Part shown: positions 49,101 through 63,895 of the stretch, in pieces
How the letters are laid out: each line of letters begins with the position of its first letter
Numbering within the stretch: position 1 is the stretch's first letter
Assembly: GCA_963930775.1 (NCBI GenBank)
Contig: OZ005696.1
Coordinates: forward strand, 9,168,980-9,232,979
Length of the DNA stretch: 64,000 bases
Direction of reading: 5' to 3'
DNA from: Cliona cf. orientalis
Lineage: Eukaryota; Porifera; Demospongiae; Clionaida; Clionaidae
Program-made: the position numbers and the translations under genes
Notes under the pieces: generated by a model
The model's database searches: none
Told to the model about the DNA's origin: nothing
Seen by the model: only the letters and a program-made list of their open reading frames with translations

Positions 49101-49656
49101 ATGTCACTTTGCTAAAATGAGCATTGTTTACCACCACTATTATGCTATGTATCCTGCTCTCAGGCCATCCAGCTTGTTCTCCGGTATGCTCCAGTGCTGA
49201 CAGTGGAGTACTGTCTCACCTACCTTCCCCCTCAGCTGGACCACTGGAGAGACCTGCTGGCCTCACTGTTGGACATCTGCACCAGCCACGACCAGCAGGG
49301 CAGCTCAGCCAACCCTCAGCTGGTGGAAACACACCGCTCTCTCTATAAAGGTGAAGTACAATGATATTATTCTTGAAAAATGAATGGCCACGACTTCATT
49401 CCACAATGGTGGCTGCTATTGACTTAGATATCTCTTCTCCCTCTCTCCTTCTTTTCCTCCCCCATCCCTGTGCACTCACACTGCAGCTGCTCTCAACCAT
49501 GTTCTGACGGTGACTACTCCGGAAGAGTTCATGGCGCTCCTCCCTCCCTCTGGATCAATAGACTTTTATCTCCCTTTCATTGAGCACAGCTGCAAACTGT
49601 ACCTTTCCAGACAAGTGGCGGAGGAACTGCATTCCAACACTAGCTTACATCACTAG
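43101..49656 (+). CDS. HPS3: HPS3, BLOC-2 complex subunit
   Basis: Seventeen exons (43101-44380, 44763-44911, 45043-45248, 45323-45421, 45597-45748, 45813-45906, 45967-46053, 46159-46365, 46597-46840, 46988-47036, 47142-47310, 47387-47485, 47554-47679, 48504-48630, 48799-48989, 49164-49350, 49487-49656) give 1211 aa in frame. The N-terminus resembles human HPS3, notably IVELPAEYNSSVTCLACCKE and VGMDTTIRVFSL against the EMPLSEAPLCISCCPVKGD and CTNKLVLFSL regions, a beta-propeller-like domain. HPS3 with HPS5 and HPS6 forms BLOC-2, which directs cargo to lysosome-related organelles. The protein is longer than the human one (about 1004 aa), largely from a Ser-rich insert in exon 1 and a Gly run. 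Part of its last two exons is duplicated at 63063-63895. Confidence 0.85.
44556..44571. promoter_or_regulatory. Copy of the GACGACC(T/A)TTACCA motif, reverse orientation
   Basis: TGGTAAAGGTCGTCAA in the first intron of HPS3, the exact reverse complement of the array motif. Function unknown. Confidence 0.3.
46078..46132. repeat. (CT)n microsatellite in HPS3 intron
   Basis: A CT run just upstream of the exon starting at 46159. The long frames over it are not coding. Confidence 0.85.
47712..48290. repeat. 72-bp-type minisatellite in HPS3 intron
   Basis: Eight imperfect copies, marked by GGTGCCGTAGG or AGTGCTGTAG near 47766, 47840, 47910, 47982, 48052, 48115, 48179 and 48249. Spacings are 63-74 bp. 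Each unit combines GGTAATGTTGGTAAAGTTGG-type steps with a GACGGCAGCGACAA block. It lies in the intron between 47679 and 48504. Confidence 0.88.
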
Positions 49657-49871: not shown

Positions 49872-49980
49872 TATAGCAAGAATTTCTAGTGAGTAAATTC
49901 TCGGGCGATCGTACGCTGTATAAAGTTTATACAGCGTACGATCGCGCCCGAGAATTTACTCACTAGAAATTCTTGCTATA
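49872..49980. repeat. Near-perfect 109-bp palindrome
   Basis: A left arm of 53 nt starts TATAGCAAGAATTTC and a right arm of 55 nt ends GAAATTCTTGCTATA. They are complementary apart from a two-base indel near the centre, with a one-base spacer. It lies about 210 bp upstream of the CARD-protease start codon. It may be a foldback transposon or form a cruciform. Confidence 0.9.
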
Positions 49981-50188: not shown

Positions 50189-53100
50189 ATGTCGAAGTAC
50201 AATAGCCCCGAATATAGGGCCATCAAAAAGTGCTCTCCTGATCTTGCAAATGCTGTACAGGATGATCTCGCTCCGCTAAGTGGAGAGCTATCTGCCGCGG
50301 GGCTTATCACTAAAAACAACGCAGCTAATCTCCAGAATGAGTTTATTGGCGCAGCTGAGCGAGCAGCCAAGCTCGTGGGGTATTTGTTGAACGGAGTCTC
50401 CTTGAACACTGGCGAATACCACTCCTTTGTTGGAGTGCTGGAGAACAGAAAGGATGATTACAAGCGTTACGAAAATACTCTGGAAATATTGGATAAAAAT
50501 TTCAGGGAGCTCGGTGAGTCAGATCTGATACCTGTTAGTCTTGTATTAATAATAATTATTGACTAATTATTAGTTGGCCTTGTACGCCTCCAAGCCACCC
50601 TCATGATCAGTTTTCACCGTTGTGTATGGAGTGGCCTGGGGACGAGGCTACAGTACTATACCAGCCAAGTAGCTGCTACCACAACTTCCACCACTAATAG
50701 TATACTTGTACTTGGATGTGTACAAATCTTGATTACAAGTATTACAAGTGAAATAGGCACCTGAGTTTGAAATACCATTCTGAGTTGAAATACCTATCTG
50801 ACTTTGTGTATGTATACTATTAGCCTGTGATAGTGAGGTTGTATGTTGAATTTGGATAAATAGCACCTGAAATAGGCATTTGGTTCATCAAATTGTACTC
50901 GCTATTGCTCATACAATTTTTTAACCAAATACCTATTTCAGAGTGCTATTTTACCCAAATTCAACATACAACCTCACTATTACTTATACAAATAGTTTAA
51001 TTGGACAGAAAGAGACATGGTTTAATATAGCCTTGCTTCTCTCAGAATAATTTATTGTTTGAACATGGACTCAAAATATATAATATCTAGAACTCATATC
51101 CTGTTTAGCTCATACATTAGAAGCATCATAATGGCTGTACTAGGTGTGGTCGATATAGAATTCACAATTTTTACATGACCAGTGTAACGTGCTAAGAAGC
51201 AAAGAAAATAGTTCTTCACCATTCGATGACGCTTACCAACTATCTATAGACTGGTTGGCCAGCCGCTTCCTCCCTCTTATGAAGGGGCTGGCCCACTAGA
51301 CTACCATCTACCCTGATGCCTGAATCTCCAGATCTGGCTTTTTTTGGTGACAGACAGACAGAACCAATTTTTGCTTCACCCAATATACCTTGAATTTACT
51401 GAAACACTTGGTTGTATGCAAAATGCTACTAATAATAATTATATTATATCGTAGCTTATTATAATATACTGTTCATTTGTTTATAGGTGGGAGATACCCT
51501 CTTCCAAAACCCAGCAAGAGCTACAAAGATGGTGAGGATCGATAACTGCATGCATTTTATTGATAAGTTAGTGTACTGGGAGACGGTAGGGCTTATGGCC
51601 ACATGGGATTCCTCATTCCCATAATTACCCCACGTGCATGTGCAAAAGTAATCGGTCGTGTCGTTGTTGTCGTTATGAGCACTAAAACTGCCTTATCTCG
51701 AGACCTATGCACCTGAGCAACTCGTAAGCACAACGAATCAGTCAAATTTGGCGAAATGTGCACACGGGGTATGTGCTCTACTGAGCTCTAGTTATCTAAA
51801 TTAGATACATGATTCGTAAATACACTTCTAGAATCAACTAGCTATTATTCTCAAAGGGGGCGGGTAAGTACCACAAGGAACATTAATCTGCTCAGTTTTC
51901 AAAGGCCTAGACGGGGGTGTGGAGAGGCATCACAGCTTGCTTGAGAATTGGTAGCCTAGGCAATTATGAATGCACCAGGAGAGGCAGAGGGAAAAGCAGC
52001 ACTCTGACGATGAGGTTGCCTACATTAATTTTAGGCCTAACCATCACAAGCATATCCCTTCAAGAGTTATCCCACTATGTGTGTATAATAATCTTTGCTG
52101 TGAGAATTTGAGATGTTTATAAACTATGAATATAATTTAGATTGGTTTTTGGATAAGCTTTAGTTTGGTACTTTTGTGATAAGAAATTATATTTCACAAG
52201 TTTTTTTTTTACCAGAGGCCTATAGCTGTGGTGCTTTTGAGTGCAAGGACTATAAAATTACACATGGACGACTCTTGAAGGAATATGCTTATGGTTGTCA
52301 GGCCTAAAATTAATGTGGTTGCATCTGCATCTAGCTCTCCTGGTGCATCCGTGATTGCTACAGCTACTACCAATTAATCCTCGAGTTCAACTTCAGTAGA
52401 GCTGTTACCATTTAGTCATGTAGTAGGTATACGTAATACTATACTGTTGGCCATGAGGCTGCAGCCCATCATGGTCTATCTGAGGTTGGGCAGTGCTTAA
52501 CGCATTGTTGCAGCCAGCTCCATCACCATGCAAGGTCCAATGTTGTCAGAAGACTTGTTCAGTGGCCGAAGTCAATTTAAGCTGGCTGAGAATGAACAGA
52601 TTCATATCCCACAGGCTGTGGTGCCCCCTTTGAGAATTTGAGAACTATGAAGTTGGATTCCATATGGTGCCGGGATAATTTTCGGCACTTAAAAGGCTGT
52701 AAGAGATGTGCAGCTGATTATTACTAATGGATGATTGTAGGTACATTGGCGTATGCTTGACTATCCGAAACACCTTGAATGTCAGAAATGCCTGACTACC
52801 AGAAACAAACAACAATGGTTGTATATTATATTGTGTGAATCACTACAACTGTGACCAACCAGCTGCAAGCTAAAGACTACACCAGGCAAGCTCAAACACG
52901 TCATCCACCAATCCCCAAAGCTAGCTAGACACCATAGCTACATGGCGACAATATTATTATAGTACTTCACAGCTGGATAGTGAGGGAAGTTAGATCTTGC
53001 TCTGGTCTATTATATTTACGAAGCTTATTTTGTGTGAAATAATGATTAACTAAAAGGGTATGTATCTATATAATATAGTCCAGGTATAATATAAAATATT

Positions 53101-56100
53101 ATATTATTTTAGGCCTCTGGTAAAATTCGGTGGATCGCTATCATAATAGTACAATTTATCACAAATCATAATCATAGAATCGATAGACTCTCTAAGTAGG
53201 GATGGCCTGGACACTCATGTTGCTGATTATTACCATCTTAGCTATTAGGCTACTTCAATTAATATTCTGTTTCTTCAGCTGGCCTTTTATCTGGTACTAA
53301 ATGTTTGATATATTTTTATGGATTGGCCCAAAATGCAAAATTTTGTACCCACTAACATTAGCTACATGCTCTATAGAATATTAGAATAATATTATAAGTC
53401 TACCCCTAGCCTGTACCATTTTTTGCACAAATAGCCTTTCCGTTATCTAATTGCATGCAGGGAAGACACCTGGGAAACCCTCCCATCCACCACAAATACC
53501 ATTACTGCAGGGCATACTATGATTGTGGCAAATTATCTGTAATATTATATATATGTTACCAGTGTGTGGTACTTTGGGTATTGGGGTGGTTCTTTTCCTA
53601 GTTTACATTGCCAGATGGTTACCCCTGGCCTATTTTAATCACAGATGATGAAACTCTTCCATCAGCACCAAAAAGAGCTAAGACTGAGACCAGCAGTAAG
53701 TTGCATGTTGCTGATTATTATCTATTTAGGCCATTTCAATTGATTACCGTATTGCCTCTAATTTAACGGACATCTCTACACTGCAAAAATTTTGGGGTGA
53801 TATCACTCCAAAAATGGGTGCACTTCATCCCACCAGTCAATCACTCCAGTGGAGTGAAGCACCAAAAGAGTGAATTCACTCCAAGGATGAGTGGAGTTCA
53901 CTCCTTCAGCAACTCACTCCAGTGGAGTGAAGGACTAAAAGAGTGAATTCACTCCAATGATGAGTGTGGTTCACTCTCGTAGCAAACCACTCCTAGGAGT
54001 GAAGCAGACTCACTCCAGCTAACGATGGCCTTGGAGTGACTAATTGAGGAGTGATTTCACCCATCATGCACTTTCAACATTAATATCTATCTGATAACTA
54101 TTTTGCATAGCTAACATCATAGTATTGAAGTTATTTCTAGCTAGCAAGACTCCTGCATGTGAAAAACTGAAGAGCTAGTCAATGGCTGTCACAAGTTAGC
54201 TATTCAAGCCTGAGTCACCTCTAAAATTGTGGTATATCTACAATGAAGATGGATTTCTAAATGCTAACTTAGGCTACACTGAGCTGCCAAAAGATGGAGC
54301 ATCTTGGCAGAGTACTACCTAAAGATGATACATCTTGCAGTACAATCAGTCACTGCTAGCTATAGTGATGACCCACTGACCAACTGCCAAAAGATGGAGC
54401 ATCTTGGCAGAGTACATACTACCCAAAGATGAGGCATCTTGGTAGCACTGGTCACTACTACTATGCTTTTCCTCCCCTCTCTTGCTAGTACTACTCAGTT
54501 AAACTAACCTTCAAAAGTCATATGCAGCTTGCCATAGCGCGCGCAAATGTAGTGTTCACGTGAAAATCACATGACTCAGATTGCACTGTCACTATGGGAT
54601 TCAAAGGTTATGTGTGGGTGGTACCAGGAGCAGCTGCAGGCGTTAAAGTAGACAAGAAGAGAAAGCTGTTTTCGTGCCTTGTGCCCGCCGAAAAAGCTCA
54701 TCCTTGGAGTCCTTTTTATCAGTGAAGGTTGTATAATGAAAGAAAAGGCTCGTAGAAGCTCTTTTGAGGTGAGTGAAATGCGGTACATAACAATTTTAAT
54801 ATGCCCGTGCCATTTGGCAAAATTTTAATATAATATGGCTGATAAAAATGTCCAGGCATTATTGATACCAAAAGACTGGGACGAAATGGATGCTGAATCG
54901 GAATCTAGTCTTCACAAAGAGAAGGATTAAGTTTGCTGTTGAAAATGTAAGTACTAAAAAATAACATACTGCCCTAGGGTACAGTGTCTGGGGGACAACT
55001 TTTTAGGGGGGCCATGTGACACTATTACAACGTAGCTGGCTAGCTACTATGCATGCAGTAAAAAAATTGAATCTCTGGTTCAAGTAAAGGGAGGGGGTGG
55101 GGAAAGTTGTAGCCTCGTACCCAGGCCCTTTGATCGAGGAGAAAGCGCCTGGTACCTATTGCACGCGCATGCGCTAGCTACCCCAAGAAAACCTAGGGTG
55201 CTGCAAACTACTGTACGCTTTTTTGCCCTCCTCCCGCGGCCTAGAGTACGAGACTACACCAATATCAACATCGCTTCGTACCCTAGGCGTGAGAAGAGGG
55301 CAAAATAAGCGTACAGTCGTTCTCGGCATCCCAGGTTTTCTTGGGGTAGTTGGCGCATGTGTGTGCAATAGGTACCAAGCCCTCTTTCCTCCTCCTTCCG
55401 GGCCTGGGTACGAGGCTAGGGAAGTTGGTACATATTATATCTTTTTTATGTAGTTTAATTGGATCAGTGATGATGTACTTTTCTGCATGCATGCATACAT
55501 TTGCTGGAAGAAAGACAGCAGGCAATGTGCGACCTTTAGCTACAAAATTGCTCAAGGTCCCTGTGTCAGTAAGGCTTGGATTTCTCATCCGTGACCTATA
55601 TTGAACTTGAACAGAATTTCTAGAAGTTGAGACATTCCTATTGTTGTTTTCTTGCTATTAATTTTGTGTAATCTGTGTTTACTTACCGTGTACCACCTAT
55701 TGATATAATACTGTACAGTGTATACTACAGTACTAGTATTGCTAGTAGCCAGGAGTGATGGCCACCTTAACTTAGGAGTGAGATCACTCCTAGTCTAACA
55801 TGAGGAGTGGGTGTCACTCCAGAAAAAAGAGTGCTATTTGTGGCAATCATTTCACTCCAATTTTGGGGTGAAGTTCACCCTTCCATTTTTGCAGTGTAAT
55901 TATCCGGACACCATTTCGAATTATTTTTTTTACCTCTAATTACACTGGACAGTCAATGAAGTTTGAGTTTTTGTTGTTCTAATTATCCGGACATCGTTGG
56001 ACAGCTCGCGCTAGTGTGGTACTGATCGAGCAAAATTTGCAATGGACAGCTGCTTCTTTGGTGGTACTGAAGGAGGCAAGTTGTTCTCTTTCCCACCATG

Positions 56101-59100
56101 AACAGGGAGCTCCAGGTAGCTACTGTCTCATTTTTTCAATCTCTTGCAGCTGCTCGATCGCACGTCCATTTGACCGAATGCATGCGCATGCGTGAAAGTG
56201 TGTTCTAATTCATCGGACACTTCGTATGCCGACTGTTTTCATGTGCTCTAATTATAGCGGACATTGGCCAAAATAATTATTTTTCTGGTGTCCGTTAAAT
56301 TAGAGGTAATACGGTAATATTCTGTTTCTCTAGCTGGCCTTATCTGGTACTAAATGTTTAATATTTTTTGCGGATTGACCAAAAAATGCAAAATTTTGTA
56401 CCCACCAACATTAGCTACATGCACTATGTAGAACACTAGAATACAATATAAGTCGACCCTGTACCATTTTCACGTACAAATAGTCATACTTAGCACTCAT
56501 AAAATACCAAATTCGCAGAAAAATGTACCTATAATTATAATTATCACCCTATGTATAAGGTATCAAATTTAAAGTACTAGGATGTCGGTCCATAGTTGAA
56601 GTGGCCCTGTCAATATCATTACTTCCTAGCTGCATGTGTTTGGCTAGTGAGGACCTGCGTTGTGAGCCTTTCTGTTATCTAATTGCATGCAGGGAATGTC
56701 GTAGTTCTTACTTTGATCAATAAGACTTTAATGTCATTCAACTGACAGAGAGAGAGAATGCACAATGCACACACAAACAACACTTTATATACGCAAACGT
56801 ATGCATGACACTGAATGACACATGATACTAAAAATAGCACAAATAACAATAATAATATTAAGGAAAGTCATTTCCTCCACAGGGAAGACACCTGGGAAAC
56901 CCTCCCATCCACCACAAATACCATTACTACTATACAGGGCATACTATGATAATATGGCAAATTATATATCTGTAATATTATTATGTTGCCAGTGTGTGGT
57001 ACTTTGAGTATTAGGGTGTTTCTTTTCCTAGTTGACATTATCAGATGGTTACCCCTGGCCTATTTTAATCACAGATGATGAAACTCTTCCACCACCATCA
57101 AAAAAGGCTAAAGCTGAGACCAGTAAGTTACATGTTGCTGATTATTACCATCTTATGCTGCTAGGCTACTTCAATTAATATTCTGTTTCTCCAACTGGAC
57201 TAAAATTTAATGTTTGAAATTTTTATGGATTGGCCCAAAAATGCAAAATTTTGTAGCTACATGCACTACAGAACATTAGAATAATATAAGTCGACCCTAG
57301 CCTAGCTATATCATTTCCATTGTACAAATAATCACACTTAGCTAGCACTCACAAAATATCAAAATTGCAGAAAAATGTACCTATAATATTATAATTATCA
57401 CCTATAATTTAATAGGGTCGGTCCATAGTTGAAGTGGCCCTATCACTACTTCCTAGCTGCATGTGTTTAGCTGGTGACGGCCTGTGGGCCTTCCTGTTAT
57501 GCAGGGAAGACACCATATAGGAACCCTCCCACCCACCACAAATACCATTACTGCAGCGCAGGGCGTACTACGATGTGGTAAATTATCTATAGTGTTGCCA
57601 GTGTGTGGATCTTGCACCTTATGTGGTGCTTGGGTGATTCTGCATGGGGTAGCTACAAAAAAAACTTAAATAATATTGTGCATGCATTTGAACCATTAAA
57701 TTTTGTACTGTATTTCTATGATCATAATATTATGCATATTATAGGTTTATCTGCCACAAGTCCATCTACAGTTGCAGGTAAATAATCACTATGGGTACAA
57801 CATACTGACATAAGTTGTGTTAATAAACCCCACCCCCATCCCCATAGATTCATGTGAAATAATTGATGGCACAAATACAGCTCCAAATGAAGGTTCTGAC
57901 TTAGAGGTACATAATCACAGTGATAAATGTAGTTGCAACCCACTGTTTTGCTATGGTTATGAAGTGTATAGCTTTGTGCAATGCCATACAGAATGATCCG
58001 TTCCATTGCCGGTGCTCCTTTATCGGTCAGCAAGACATTTCACCTCCACCATCAGATGTGGATTCAAGTGGAGACCATTATGCCGCATTTAAACGTGGTG
58101 TCAATCTGTGGAATGAGCCTACGGTCACTGTTGCCTTCACACCCACGTCTTTTAATTATATTGAGACGCGCAATGCCACATGGAAGCTAGACTCAATAGA
58201 GAAGATCCTCGAATTGGCAAATACGTGGCATAAGCTACAAAAAGACCCCAAACATATTCCAAAGTTTATCCCTTTTCCTGGCCAAAATATTCAACGTGCT
58301 GACATTATAGTGGAATTGAATGGTAATAATAATGCATGGCTATAATTATACATCTCCATCAATAATTATACTGTTGTCCTATATTTACACCGGTATTGAA
58401 TAGAAAAAGGCGTAAGCAAGTCAAAATGTGGAAATGATAGAGAAGCTGGTAGCACCGAACCCTCCATGTGGCTTGATCTCAGTGGCCCAAACGACAACTA
58501 CAATAAGCATCTTGTGGTACATGAGTTTGGCCATGCCCTTGGACTGGGGCATGAGCACCAGAGGTCTGACTTTCGGGCCTGTGTCATTCCCTTCCTTGAC
58601 GAAACGAAGATGCATAAGAGTCTTGGAAAAAGATACAAGGATTGGGAAAGAAATGATGAATTGGACATAGACAGCGCTACGGAGTACGACTCTGAAAGTG
58701 TGATGCACTACTGGTGAGTGTGCTACGTATAATAATTATTACTAGCTAGTCGTACGTGTTACATGTCATTGTATATATCAATGTATGAAACTTCAAAAAG
58801 TAGCTAGGAGCCAAAAGTGTGACTGTAGACAGCTGTTTCACCTCAGTATCACTTGGCTCATCATGAATTGTAGGTTTGAGAAAAAATGGCTGAAACATGG
58901 CTATGATGACAGGAAGCAAATTTTGAAACATTTCGAAAAACAGATCCTATCTGAGAAAATGAAGAATGCTCTCTTGGCGGTTCATACCTGCAAGTACGAA
59001 ACACTGCCAACCAAACCTTCTGCAAAGGATCTCGCCTTTGTCAATGGTCCAGTAATGTATGGTTAGTTAAATAAGATTGATTTGAAGGCTAATCACCTAG

Positions 59101-59141
59101 CTACTACCTTTATTACAGGAAAAATCAAGCCTGAGAATTAA
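50189..59141 (+). CDS. CARD-like domain fused to astacin-like zinc metalloprotease
   Basis: Ten exons (50189-50513, 51487-51531, 53645-53695, 57075-57122, 57745-57777, 57848-57906, 57992-58322, 58404-58713, 58874-59061, 59119-59141) join in frame to 470 aa. Exon 1 encodes a six-helix death-fold domain that looks like a CARD (GLITKNNAANLQ, KLVGYLLNGVS). Exons 3 and 4 repeat DDETLP followed by a basic KRAK or KKAK cluster, resembling nuclear localisation signals. The C-terminal half has HEFGHALGLGHEHQR, the HExxHxxGxxHExxR zinc site of astacins, and SVMHY, the Met-turn. No signal peptide is visible, so an intracellular protease recruited by CARD contacts is inferred. Astacins are normally secreted, so this arrangement is unusual. 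The exon 1 to exon 2 link and the very short exons rest on splice sites and frame only. Confidence 0.7.
50829..50991. repeat. Long hairpin in intron 1 of the CARD-protease gene
   Basis: Arms of about 57-60 bp (50829-50885 and 50932-50991) are inverted with only a few mismatches, sharing GTTGTATGTTGAATTTGG. The loop is about 46 bp. In RNA it would form a stable stem. Confidence 0.8.
51970..52350. repeat. Imperfect inverted repeat in intron 2 of the CARD-protease gene
   Basis: Arms at about 51970-52072 and 52268-52350 share TGCACCAGGAGAG, ACATTAATTTTAGGCCT and CCTTCAAGAGT in inverted order. No coding content was seen; a decayed foldback transposon is likely. Confidence 0.6.
53779..55896. mobile_element. 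2118-bp CACTG-ended transposon inside the pogo-like MITE
   Basis: The element starts CACTGCAAAAATTTTGGGGTGA-like and ends TTTTTGCAGTG, with a TA duplication; the intact MITE reads CTCTAATTATCC at the target. Its left part is rich in CACTCC and GGAGTG subterminal repeats. No transposase was recognised, so it is probably non-autonomous. It carries another insert at 55110-55418. Confidence 0.82.
55110..55418. mobile_element. 309-bp foldback element, third nesting level
   Basis: The termini TAGCCTCGTACCCAGGCC and GGCCTGGGTACGAGGCTA are inverted repeats. Flanks GGAAAGTTG and GGGAAGTTG match at eight of nine positions. The 28-bp insert at 22062 has the same ends. Confidence 0.8.
56696..56885. mobile_element. 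190-bp insertion with CAGGGA duplication
   Basis: The sequence GCATGCAGGGAAGACACC seen at 53459 is interrupted here after CAGGGA, which is repeated at 56880-56885. The insert contains a GA run and CA-rich sequence. Its family is unknown. Confidence 0.6.
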
Positions 59142-60269: not shown

Positions 60270-60873
60270 TATCGCAACACCGTTAGCGCTAGCGCTGGTA
60301 TAAATCTATACTACGTATATAGTCCGTATGGACAGTTAGCGTTGAAGGAAATTTTCAATATGGAGGAGCCACATCCTTGTGAGTCTGGCATGCGTTTTGA
60401 TCTCGACCAAGTAATAGTAATGTTTCCATCCCCTAGATCTATAGTCTTTTGGCAACTCGAGCATTGTATAAGACTAATAAGTACATGCGTTTTAATACAG
60501 TAGTCTAGAAATATTAAATGTCATACTATCCAATCATCAGTTGTATTGTACATAGTGTTTAATATTGATCCTACGGTTGTAGTACAATATTGTGAATCAC
60601 AGCCATGCATGACTTTTTAAATATAATAACTCTAGCCCAACATGCAGAGGAGCGTATAGCCAGTGACTGTGTTTTAGCACCTGGAGATGTTGATCTGTGG
60701 GATGTACCTACAACACTTCTGGTCCAATTCATGGAGGAGATCAAACAGAATCAGCTAGAGATGTGAGATATTTAATACGAGCACCTAGTTACGTCACAAG
60801 CCAGTGTGCATTATTAGAAATTTAACACTGTAGGCCTAAAGATGCCATTGTAGACCATGCCAAGGGCCTATAG

Positions 60874-60968
60874 CTACTGTGCTTTGCAGATCAGTTGTCT
60901 AGGAAAAAATTAGGAATTGGCACCTGTCTCTCCTTTCCACTAGACAACTGACTTGCAAAGCACAGTAG
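60874..60968. repeat. Hairpin with 29-bp arms
   Basis: CTACTGTGCTTTGCA...CAGTTGTCTAG at 60874-60902 is inverted at 60940-60968 with two mismatches, in an intron of protease copy 2. Confidence 0.75.
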
Positions 60969-61345
60969 ACCCCAAAGAGAAAGAGGGCACAGCATGTAAT
61001 GTCCTATGGTACCTAGAAAAAGTCAGTGGTTTGTAACTAATTATAGTAACAGCTGCTATCTGGATTTCACTAAGATTTCTACTATTTTTTGTGAATTTTG
61101 CCAGGTGCCTACTTACATGCCCTCTTCTCCTTTAGAAGTCTATAAGCCCTTGATACAAAATTTAACACTGTAGGCCTGAAAATGCCATCCAGAAGAGGCC
61201 ATGTGCAGAAAAGTGGGGCCTAACAGCTGAACAGATTCTGCAGTGGGCCAATAGGTGGTCCACAACTCCCAAATCAAGTGCACGAAACAAAAACTTCATT
61301 CCAAAGTTCAAATTGGCTGAAGGAAGGGGAACACCACACATAGTG

Positions 61346-61628
61346 CAAGGGCGTAGACACAATTTTCAAAGTGGGGGGGGGGGGGGGCTTGTGATAGCTG
61401 TGCGCGAAGCGTGCGAAAATTTTTGATCCTATTGTGTCCAGAACCTTTAAAATCAGCTATTTCCAGCAATTACTTCCCAAATTTGTTGGCTATCCAACTA
61501 TGATTACAGTGAATACAACTAGAATTTCATCTAACTCTAACAATCCCATATATTATAGTACATAAATTAATGCTCAAAAAGTGGGGGGGGCTAAAGCCCC
61601 CCCAAGCCCCCACCTGTCTACACCCTTG
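61346..61628. mobile_element. 283-bp MITE in protease copy 2, TAGTG duplication
   Basis: The ends CAAGGGCGTAGACA and TGTCTACACCCTTG are inverted repeats with one mismatch, flanked by TAGTG on both sides. The interior ends are G-rich and C-rich. A 5-bp duplication fits hAT5-like or Transib-like transposases, but the family is not settled. Confidence 0.85.
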
Positions 61629-62431
61629 TAGTGGTTGTGCTCAATGGTAAAGTATTTTATAAAAACGAGGACAATCTTCAACATTTTATTGGTATTTTGT
61701 TTAGAAAGAGGGACGAATTTTACTAGGTATGGAGAACATCAGGGTAGCGTTGAACATCCGAACATGTGGCTTGATCTTAGTACCGGTGATGACCGTCACA
61801 AAGAACACCTTGTCGTTCATGAATTCGGCCACGCCCTGGGGCTGGGCCACGAGCATCAGCGGCCTGACTTTTGGAAGCTCATTGAACCCTTTGTCGACAA
61901 GAACAAGATGGAGAGGGCTACGGGTGCATTGTGTTATTGCTGGAAGATGGATAAAGGTCTGAAGGTCAAGAAGGGAAAAGCCACTAGATACGACAGTGAG
62001 AGCGTCATGCACTATTGGTAAGAGATTACTGCATAAAGAGCTTGGGATTGGACAAGGCTAGCTCTTATCAAGCCTATACAGTGTCATACTGAAGCATGAT
62101 TCCTGGTATGCCACAATTATTCAACAGGTTTGCGAAAGAGTGGCTGACCAATGGCTACCATGACAAACAGAAAATTGAAGATGACTATAAGTGTGAAAAG
62201 CTAACGAAAAAGAAAAGGGATGCACTTATGGCTGTCCATGACTGTGACAAGAGAGAAACTACTGAGCCTTCTGCTAAGGATATTGAGTTTCTCAACAAGA
62301 TATACCATAGTACGTCAGTGTTATAAAACTAGCTGTATACTGTTGTTATAATGTACAATAATCATTGCATTGCCCTTCTTCTGGTTTCAGGAAAGAAGAC
62401 ACAGACTACGTGTATGTGCATATGCAGCTGA

Positions 62432-63062: not shown

Positions 63063-63895
63063 CTGTATCCTGCTCTCAGGCCTTCCAGCTGGTTCTCCGG
63101 TATGCTCCAGTGCTGACAGTGGAGTACTGCCTATACCTTCCCCCTCAGCTGGACCACTGGAGAGACCTGCTGGCCTCACTGTTGGACATCTGCACCAGCC
63201 ACAACCAGCAGGGCAGCTCAGCCAACCCTCAGCTGGTGGAAACACACCGCTCTCTCTATAAAGGCAGGCCCGTACACAGGGGGGGTTCGAGGGGGTTCGG
63301 ACGAACCCCCCTTTTTTGGCCACCTAGCATACTAGCACTAGAAACAATCCAGGTGTAACTTACATGCTTCTTTACAAAACGAAGTGTTATTAATTTTTCC
63401 AAATAACGCACACCGGATGTGCAATAGTCAGTGTACATATACATAGTGCTAGTCTAGTAGCTAGCAGCATGAGCCCATAATTGTAAACCACTGTCAGAAT
63501 GCCTCAGAATCACCCTCAAAGAGTCTAAATTTCCAAAATTTTCTGGGGGAGCATGCCCCCAGACCCCCCCTAGGTGGCTGTGGGCTAATGCCCACAGCAC
63601 ACCTGTCTGAGCCACGCCCCCATGTAACCCCCCTTTGAGAAAGTCTGCGTACGGGCCTGAAAGGTGAAGTACAATGATATTATTCTTGAAAAATTGAATG
63701 GCCACGACTTCATTCCGCAATGGTGGCTGCTATTGACTTAGATATCTCTTCTCCCTCTCTCCTTCTTTTCCTCCCCCATCCCTGTGCACTCACACTGCAG
63801 CTGCTCTCAACCATGTTCTGACAGTGACTACTCCGGAAGAGTTCATATCACTCCTTCCTCCCTCTGGGTCAATAAACTTTTATCTCCCTTTCATT
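63063..63895 (+). pseudogene. HPS3: Duplicated fragment of the HPS3 3' end
   Basis: The sequence matches 49145-49588 of HPS3: the intron end, the whole penultimate exon (here 63082-63264), the last intron and about 100 bp of the final exon. One codon is lost in the penultimate exon (frame kept). A 395-bp transposon interrupts the junction of exon and intron, and the copy stops mid-exon at the start of another repeat. It cannot encode HPS3. Confidence 0.88.
63265..63659. mobile_element. 395-bp MITE in the HPS3 fragment, AAAGG duplication
   Basis: Perfect ends CAGGCCCGTAC and GTACGGGCCTG are flanked by AAAGG on both sides. The parental HPS3 site at 49347 reads TATAAAGGTGAAG without the element, which proves the boundaries. 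It has G/C-run subterminal sequence and a 5-bp duplication, like the element at 61346-61628. Confidence 0.92.

Follow-up and report, generated by a model that had tools for sequence, protein, structure and literature searches.

A CARD-linked astacin-type protease gene and its relatives in the sponge Cliona cf. orientalis

This report concerns a ten-exon gene at positions 50189-59141, forward strand, of a 64,000-nucleotide stretch of the genome of the sponge Cliona cf. orientalis (GCA_963930775.1, contig OZ005696.1; G000:C8:9168980-9232979 in our numbering), which we call the window. The gene appears to join a domain of the CARD family, a linker and an astacin-type (M12A) zinc protease domain, and it is not a lone oddity, being one of about 22 related genes, many of which have CARD, DEATH, TIR or SAM-like exons upstream. 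We are confident, short of certainty, that this is indeed a single CARD-linker-M12A gene, and we favour, with a good deal less assurance, the view that one gene here specifies a soluble intracellular (cytosolic or nuclear) zinc protease recruited through its CARD in the manner of the CARD-caspases. The existence of such a family, many of whose members have immune adaptor domains just upstream, hints that animal innate immunity has a proteolytic arm not yet described.

An earlier reading of the same DNA from its letters alone (the sequence-only reading) had described one 470-residue frame with two DDETLP-basic cassettes, a complete zinc site with its Met-turn and no signal peptide, laid out like a CARD-caspase, and in all of these respects it has stood: the ten GT-AG exons are open throughout, the zinc site is present and Pfam Astacin matches above its cut-off, no signal peptide is visible by hydropathy, and an N-terminal CARD-family domain, a linker and a protease follow one another in the frame. 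Its one-gene view is strengthened by a second, diverged gene on contig C5, which keeps to this order and to these phases as far as exon 8. The death-fold similarity on which its CARD call hung is found at the level of the family, in matches to Pfam CARD and to Apaf-1, and the call is sound there and not for the window copy taken by itself.

The gene and its two domains

The exons, which have AG acceptors and GT donors throughout, would splice into a single open frame of 470 codons plus a stop, in a transcript that we infer from the genomic sequence. Phase 1 is set by the donor of the CARD exon and is kept through exons 2-5 (each phase 1-1); exon 6 then shifts the frame to phase 0, and exons 7-10 make up the protease. 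In order, they are:

50189..50513, forward strand: exon 1, ATG and CARD-family domain (109 amino acids) with a phase-1 donor; this copy alone matches no CARD model
51487..51531, forward strand: exon 2, linker GRYPLPKPSKSYKD, phase 1-1, with a close peptide in a C14 relative
53645..53695, forward strand: exon 3, first basic cassette DDETLPSAPKRAKTETS (KRAK), phase 1-1, from the frame and genome search
57075..57122, forward strand: exon 4, second basic cassette NDETLPPPSKKAKAETS (KKAK), phase 1-1, a duplicate of exon 3 read in the spliced frame
57745..57777, forward strand: exon 5, linker SLSATSPSTVA, phase 1-1, short and tentatively placed from splice signals
57848..57906, forward strand: exon 6, linker DSCEIIDGTNTAPNEGSDLE, phase 1-0, likewise tentative and placed from splice signals
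57992..58322, forward strand: exon 7, which starts with the C[ST] motif (a possible latency cysteine) and codes for the N-terminal half of the M12A domain, with a phase-0 acceptor
58404..58713, forward strand: exon 8, zinc site HEFGHALGLGHEHQR and Met-turn SVMHYW, from the frame, Pfam and a motif check
58874..59061, forward strand: exon 9, C-terminal extension (FEKKWLKHGY...), present also in relatives (C1 relative L061, E 7e-10; L033-L035)
59119..59141, forward strand: exon 10, last residues (KIKPEN) and stop, its first codon completed from exon 9, from the frame

On C14 (L065), a CARD exon of 71% identity is followed by the peptide close to exon 2, GRYPLSKPSESYKDG. Exons 3 and 4 arose by duplication within the gene, with flanking intron included (88% identity), the first codon of exon 4 being completed as Asn in the spliced frame, and the DDETLP segment returns three genome-search matches, all within this gene and one of them a partial copy that lacks the exon. 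A sigma-70 and terminator scan was uninformative for an animal gene.

We assign exon 1 to the CARDs because other members of its family match CARD, while the window copy does not. At least 111 matches to this exon are found in the genome (217 Mb, 149 contigs) at E up to 0.01, with 150 of 182 candidates scored. Pfam CARD (PF00619) is matched at E up to 1 by nine of the 21 members sampled in our alignment A1 (the window copy and 20 copies fetched from the genome matches), the best at 6.3e-7; in a rescan of ten of the 21, six reached E up to 0.01, one of them above and one exactly at the 23.9-bit cut-off. When the A1 profile was searched against PDB, the best eight of 24 rows were all Apaf-1, aligned over its CARD, at weak E-values of 0.007-0.023, and a PDB search with a single C5 copy of the CARD returned nothing useful.

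The CARD family is also found in other settings. For example, a copy at L150 (C18:2317500-2320700) closes an 874-residue frame similar to Roc-COR GTPases (COR-A model, 33.3 bits, just short of its 35.3-bit cut-off), one at L149 238-1524 (C7:1355400-1357300) is followed in the same open frame by about 300 residues in which Pfam matches nothing at E up to 0.01, and six C7 copies sit in frames of 423-459 residues.

The protease assignment can be made on the window copy directly. The zinc site HExxHxxGxxHExxR is complete and is followed by the Met-turn (SxMHY), and Pfam Astacin (PF01400) matches the protein at 1.2e-8 and 35.3 bits, against a cut-off of 22.5. Among solved structures, the profile of seven family members (A2) finds bacterial myroilysin at 3e-12, with BMP1 behind it at 1e-5. 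Bacterial astacins give this family better scores than do the sponge's own ordinary ones: in a scan of bacterial and archaeal genomes that yielded at least 79 astacin loci, 34 score at least 50 bits with a six-member profile (best 64.6), whereas eight ordinary sponge astacins score 20-32 bits with the same profile, mostly over the C-terminal part. We built a tree of 44 rows, comprising seven family members, seven of the eight ordinary astacins (L001 was dropped, its zinc motif being off pattern) and 30 of the 79 bacterial loci, chosen for at least 50 bits and near-full coverage. The seven family members form one clade (99/98), apart from the ordinary astacins (100/100) and the bacterial rows (81/68), and within it the window copy groups weakly with two C5 copies (82/40). 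Since the tree is unrooted and carries long-branch warnings, we make no claim of transfer from bacteria.

The dropped locus, L001 (C1:1817222-1820809), is the best-scoring ordinary astacin locus of the genome and may be inactive, because its zinc motif has HKIGH where HExxH should stand.

Recurrence of the adaptor-protease order

The fusion recurs in a second gene. L039 (C5:9773200-9778700), the relative for which we built a complete gene model, carries a CARD, a linker with NKRTKL and M12A exons 7 and 8 in one frame, in the same phases as the window gene, although the two are diverged (CARD about 33% identical, zinc exon 50%). Two more C5 genes (L038, and L063 with L064) have a CARD and then M12A exons in the same order.

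This recurrence bears directly on the idea that the locus holds two genes, a CARD-linker gene whose transcript stops within the introns, and an M12A gene of its own that starts near 57.95 kb. An in-frame ATG at 57953 (MVMKCIALCNAIQNDPF...) does lie just before exon 7, and is followed by mildly hydrophobic residues (Kyte-Doolittle 1.83 over 12 residues); CARD and exon 7 are about 7.5 kb apart, and the tandem relatives appear to have no CARD. However, the C[ST] motif right behind the exon-7 acceptor is common to 16 of the 18 loci that could be read (22 were tried; it is missing in L148 and in the broken L030), and the acceptor is in phase 0 in L039 (by script) and in L058, L059 and L145 (by eye), so that exon 7 looks internal. 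With the whole CARD-linker-M12A order present in L039, and its phases matching, we judge two separate genes improbable.

Besides the window copy, the genome search found 21 further M12A family loci, and the zinc motif is intact in 20 of the 22 genes (19 of the 21 relatives, and the window copy). Two relatives, L030 and L032, are frame-broken. The ratio of non-synonymous to synonymous substitution (dN/dS) is 0.03-0.53 across 16 relative pairs with dS under 0.75, pairs that overlap one another and exclude the window copy, which is too diverged, and the catalytic exon of the testable relatives is under purifying selection. That the window copy is itself decaying and functionless might be suggested by the two broken relatives and by transposon-like inverted repeats in its intron 3, but its frame is open, its zinc site is intact and the testable relatives are constrained, and of all the explanations considered here we regard decay as the least probable. 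The repeats in question, at 53743-56318, are nested, with outer arms at 53743-53772/56289-56318 (97%) and inner arms at 53777-53818/55857-55898 (71%), and the elements look like DNA transposons.

How often does an adaptor exon precede these proteases? We counted 119 CARD places (the 111 and eight more) and all 141 DEATH matches, within 12 kb and with no other M12A gene between. A CARD or DEATH exon lies upstream on the same strand in ten of the 22 M12A genes within 12 kb, and in eight within 8 kb, compared with a mean of 0.34 and a maximum of 3 in 2000 trials of random placement on the same contigs, a placement that ignores clustering. The controls gave 1/22 upstream on the other strand, 5/22 downstream on the same strand and 0/22 downstream on the other strand. 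The weaker cases among the ten are L014 (a 31-residue partial DEATH), L021 (DEATH with stops), L025 (E 5e-4), and L022 and L027 (11-12 kb off).

The adaptors are varied. Joined DEATH exons upstream of L015 score 25.3 bits against a cut-off of 22.6, and a DEATH call on C9 (L060) has a genome-search E of 5e-4 and no Pfam match. The zinc exon of L016 is preceded, at a distance of about 1.9 kb, by a TIR exon of like orientation (L059 4990-5472, C8 ~245.3-245.8 kb; PF13676, 5.6e-17), whose frame hits a stop unless it is spliced earlier. Before L024, a SAM-like exon pair (L145) scores 19.5 bits, just below the cut-off of 20.5, finds four weak SAM-protein rows in PDB (E 0.1-0.59) and runs into exon 7 in phase 0 (by eye); single SAM-like half domains stand before L028 and L029 (L146, L148; by eye). 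A SAM call for an exon pair at L058 was not confirmed.

One family member lies in tandem with the window gene. No CARD exon was seen with it, and it may begin at its own ATG (60605):

60605..62296, forward strand: tandem M12A relative (L013), its exon-7-like part running from ATG 60605 to a donor after 60762 (by eye, E 0.03)
about 61.2-61.35 kb, forward strand: further exon-7-like part
61698..62027, forward strand: zinc exon
62126..62296, forward strand: exon-9-like part

On the other side of the gene, a 109-base near-palindrome (49872-49980, two nested 100% inverted repeats) precedes the CARD start codon by about 210 bases. The locus has undergone a segmental duplication, since stretches bearing exons of the neighbouring upstream gene (49148-49581) return 14 kb downstream, at 63064-63895, with 96-99% identity; the copy there is broken by an insertion (read by eye). 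Elsewhere in the genome, two loci carry the silicatein-like motif YPES[VL]DWRTKGAVT...CGASYAFSA, as suits a siliceous sponge; a literature search on them returned nothing.

Location, latency and a proposed mechanism

Where would such a protease work? Astacins are described as secreted enzymes (PMC9848320), and with Pfam Astacin above its cut-off one might suppose that this is an ordinary secreted astacin, concerned with digestion or matrix turnover, and that the upstream CARD is incidental. The protein, however, has no hydrophobic stretch in its first 40 residues (Kyte-Doolittle 12-residue maximum 1.0, a crude hydropathy test on an inferred transcript), and the FxGD aspartate switch was not seen in it, although this is also absent from seven ordinary single-exon astacin frames, a control that failed. 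As to cysteines, seven family catalytic domains, with 0-2 Cys in each row, have no conserved Cys column, against three in seven ordinary astacins, both sets cut at MHY; in longer rows the ordinary astacins have four such columns. There are no conserved columns in the family for the two or three catalytic-domain disulphides of astacins. Taken with the separate clade of the family and the death-fold exons that recur upstream of its members, these features make an ordinary secreted astacin, to our minds, very improbable.

The linker of the window protein contains K(K/R)xK twice (KRAK, KKAK). The sequence-only reading had called these exons similar to nuclear localisation signals, and that likeness comes out somewhat stronger than claimed, because KRxK recurs just before exon 7 in four of seven relatives: in a scan for K(K/R)x(K/R) shortly before that exon, NKR[TM]KL lies in an open frame at four C5 loci (L038, L039, L064 and L032). 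Nuclear entry, as read from a four-letter motif, is possible. These motifs are also what might favour an adaptor-linked signalling protease, one that cuts a nuclear transcription regulator, for instance, in place of a killing or anti-microbial effector. This option has the motif match as its support, and no such motif is seen by eye in the linkers of L058 and L059; we think it unlikely, though the most plausible of the alternatives.

We return, then, to the CARD-recruited intracellular protease, in which the layout is an N-terminal CARD, a flexible linker with two K(K/R)xK motifs, and an M12A domain with neither conserved cysteines nor a visible signal peptide. Upon infection or damage, an upstream CARD protein (sponges possess CARD-bearing NLRs) would nucleate a CARD assembly, and CARD-CARD contact would concentrate the protease; for recruitment of this kind, which we propose by analogy, we put the chances at about even. 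The C[ST] cysteine just ahead of the catalytic domain could keep the zinc blocked as long as the protein is neither clustered nor cut, so that proximity or processing would release it. The freed enzyme, assuming that it is proteolytically active, would then cleave host or invader proteins, possibly in the nucleus.

A number of observations weigh against this account. As to the gene itself, exon 1 searched alone found no CARD in a Pfam scan and none in a PDB search, and its single-sequence AlphaFold model, all helical with four helices, has a predicted local distance difference test (pLDDT) score of 58.5, too poor for a fold search; exons 5 and 6 are short and have no support from relatives. 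Exons 9-10 of L039 were looked for and not found, and the L038 linker phase misfits the CARD donor unless there is a further exon (by eye). The overlap of the dN/dS pairs, and the exclusion of the window copy from them, belong here too. Twelve of the 22 M12A genes are without an upstream CARD or DEATH exon, the tandem neighbours L012 and L013 seeming CARD-less, and the five same-strand downstream cases mean that clustering accounts for part of the association. Finally, the basic motif was absent before exon 7 in L028 and L030 and was in a stop-ridden frame only in L024, and the four positive loci are close C5 relatives, one of which (L032) is broken, with no CARD seen upstream.

Known systems and wider meaning

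The nearest parallels are the CARD-caspases. Caspase-9 and caspase-1 have this layout and work with Apaf-1 or NLR platforms. The sponge protein shares their N-terminal order of CARD, linker and protease, and Apaf-1 is the best solved relative of its CARD profile; it differs in that the enzyme is an M12A zinc metzincin and not a cysteine protease of the caspase fold. With the M12A astacins and myroilysin (5zjk, 5czw, 5gwd) it shares HExxHxxGxxHExxR, the Met-turn, the 3e-12 profile match and a possible latency cysteine, but it has a CARD at its N-terminus, lacks conserved catalytic-domain cysteines and shows no signal peptide or FxGD. LegP, a zinc protease that bacteria inject, exemplifies an astacin-type enzyme at work inside cells, and we know of no CARD in it. 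Its model (NCBIfam NF045530) matches weakly over the zinc site, at 25.5 bits, far below the family cut-off of 300.

Closer in kind are other sponge proteins. Kaur et al. (2021, PMC8195603) describe Amphimedon proteins in which Death-like domains and TRADD-N are combined with C-terminal effectors that vary, and these resemble our family in being a sponge lineage-specific expansion in which death-fold adaptors are shuffled with enzyme effectors. The enzyme effectors named for Amphimedon are caspase, PNPase and HD, with no astacin-type effector in the parts of the text covered here. A general Pfam scan of the window protein found no TRADD-N, no search having been aimed at that domain. The NLRs with CARD or DEATH reported for the sponge Dysidea avara (PMC12909245) use the same adaptor domains and might be upstream partners, but they are NACHT-LRR receptors and not proteases.

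Among the titles and abstract openings that a search of the open literature brought up, none describes a fusion of astacin with a death fold; astacin-SAM lay outside this search and TIR was covered marginally. The sequence-only reading had spoken of an undescribed system, and that goes further than the evidence allows: the parts are already known, and so is the general theme, because Kaur et al. describe death-like adaptors with shuffled effectors in Amphimedon (PMC8195603). What looks new among death-fold adaptor proteins is the M12A effector.

In its most ambitious form, our proposal is that sponges hold a class of CARD-, DEATH-, SAM- and TIR-linked cytosolic astacins of the bacterial type, kept latent by a cysteine switch and constituting a non-caspase, inflammasome-like proteolytic arm, and this we offer tentatively, as somewhat doubtful. 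The attraction of the idea is nonetheless clear. The familiar end points of death-fold signalling in animals are caspases, kinases or pore-formers, and an adaptor-linked metalloprotease family, if true, would add executors of a new class, in a lineage that is among the earliest of the animals. It would mean that astacins, described as secreted enzymes, had been moved into the cell, and it would provide a test of whether animals repeatedly fuse the same adaptors to any protease available, as bacterial conflict systems do.

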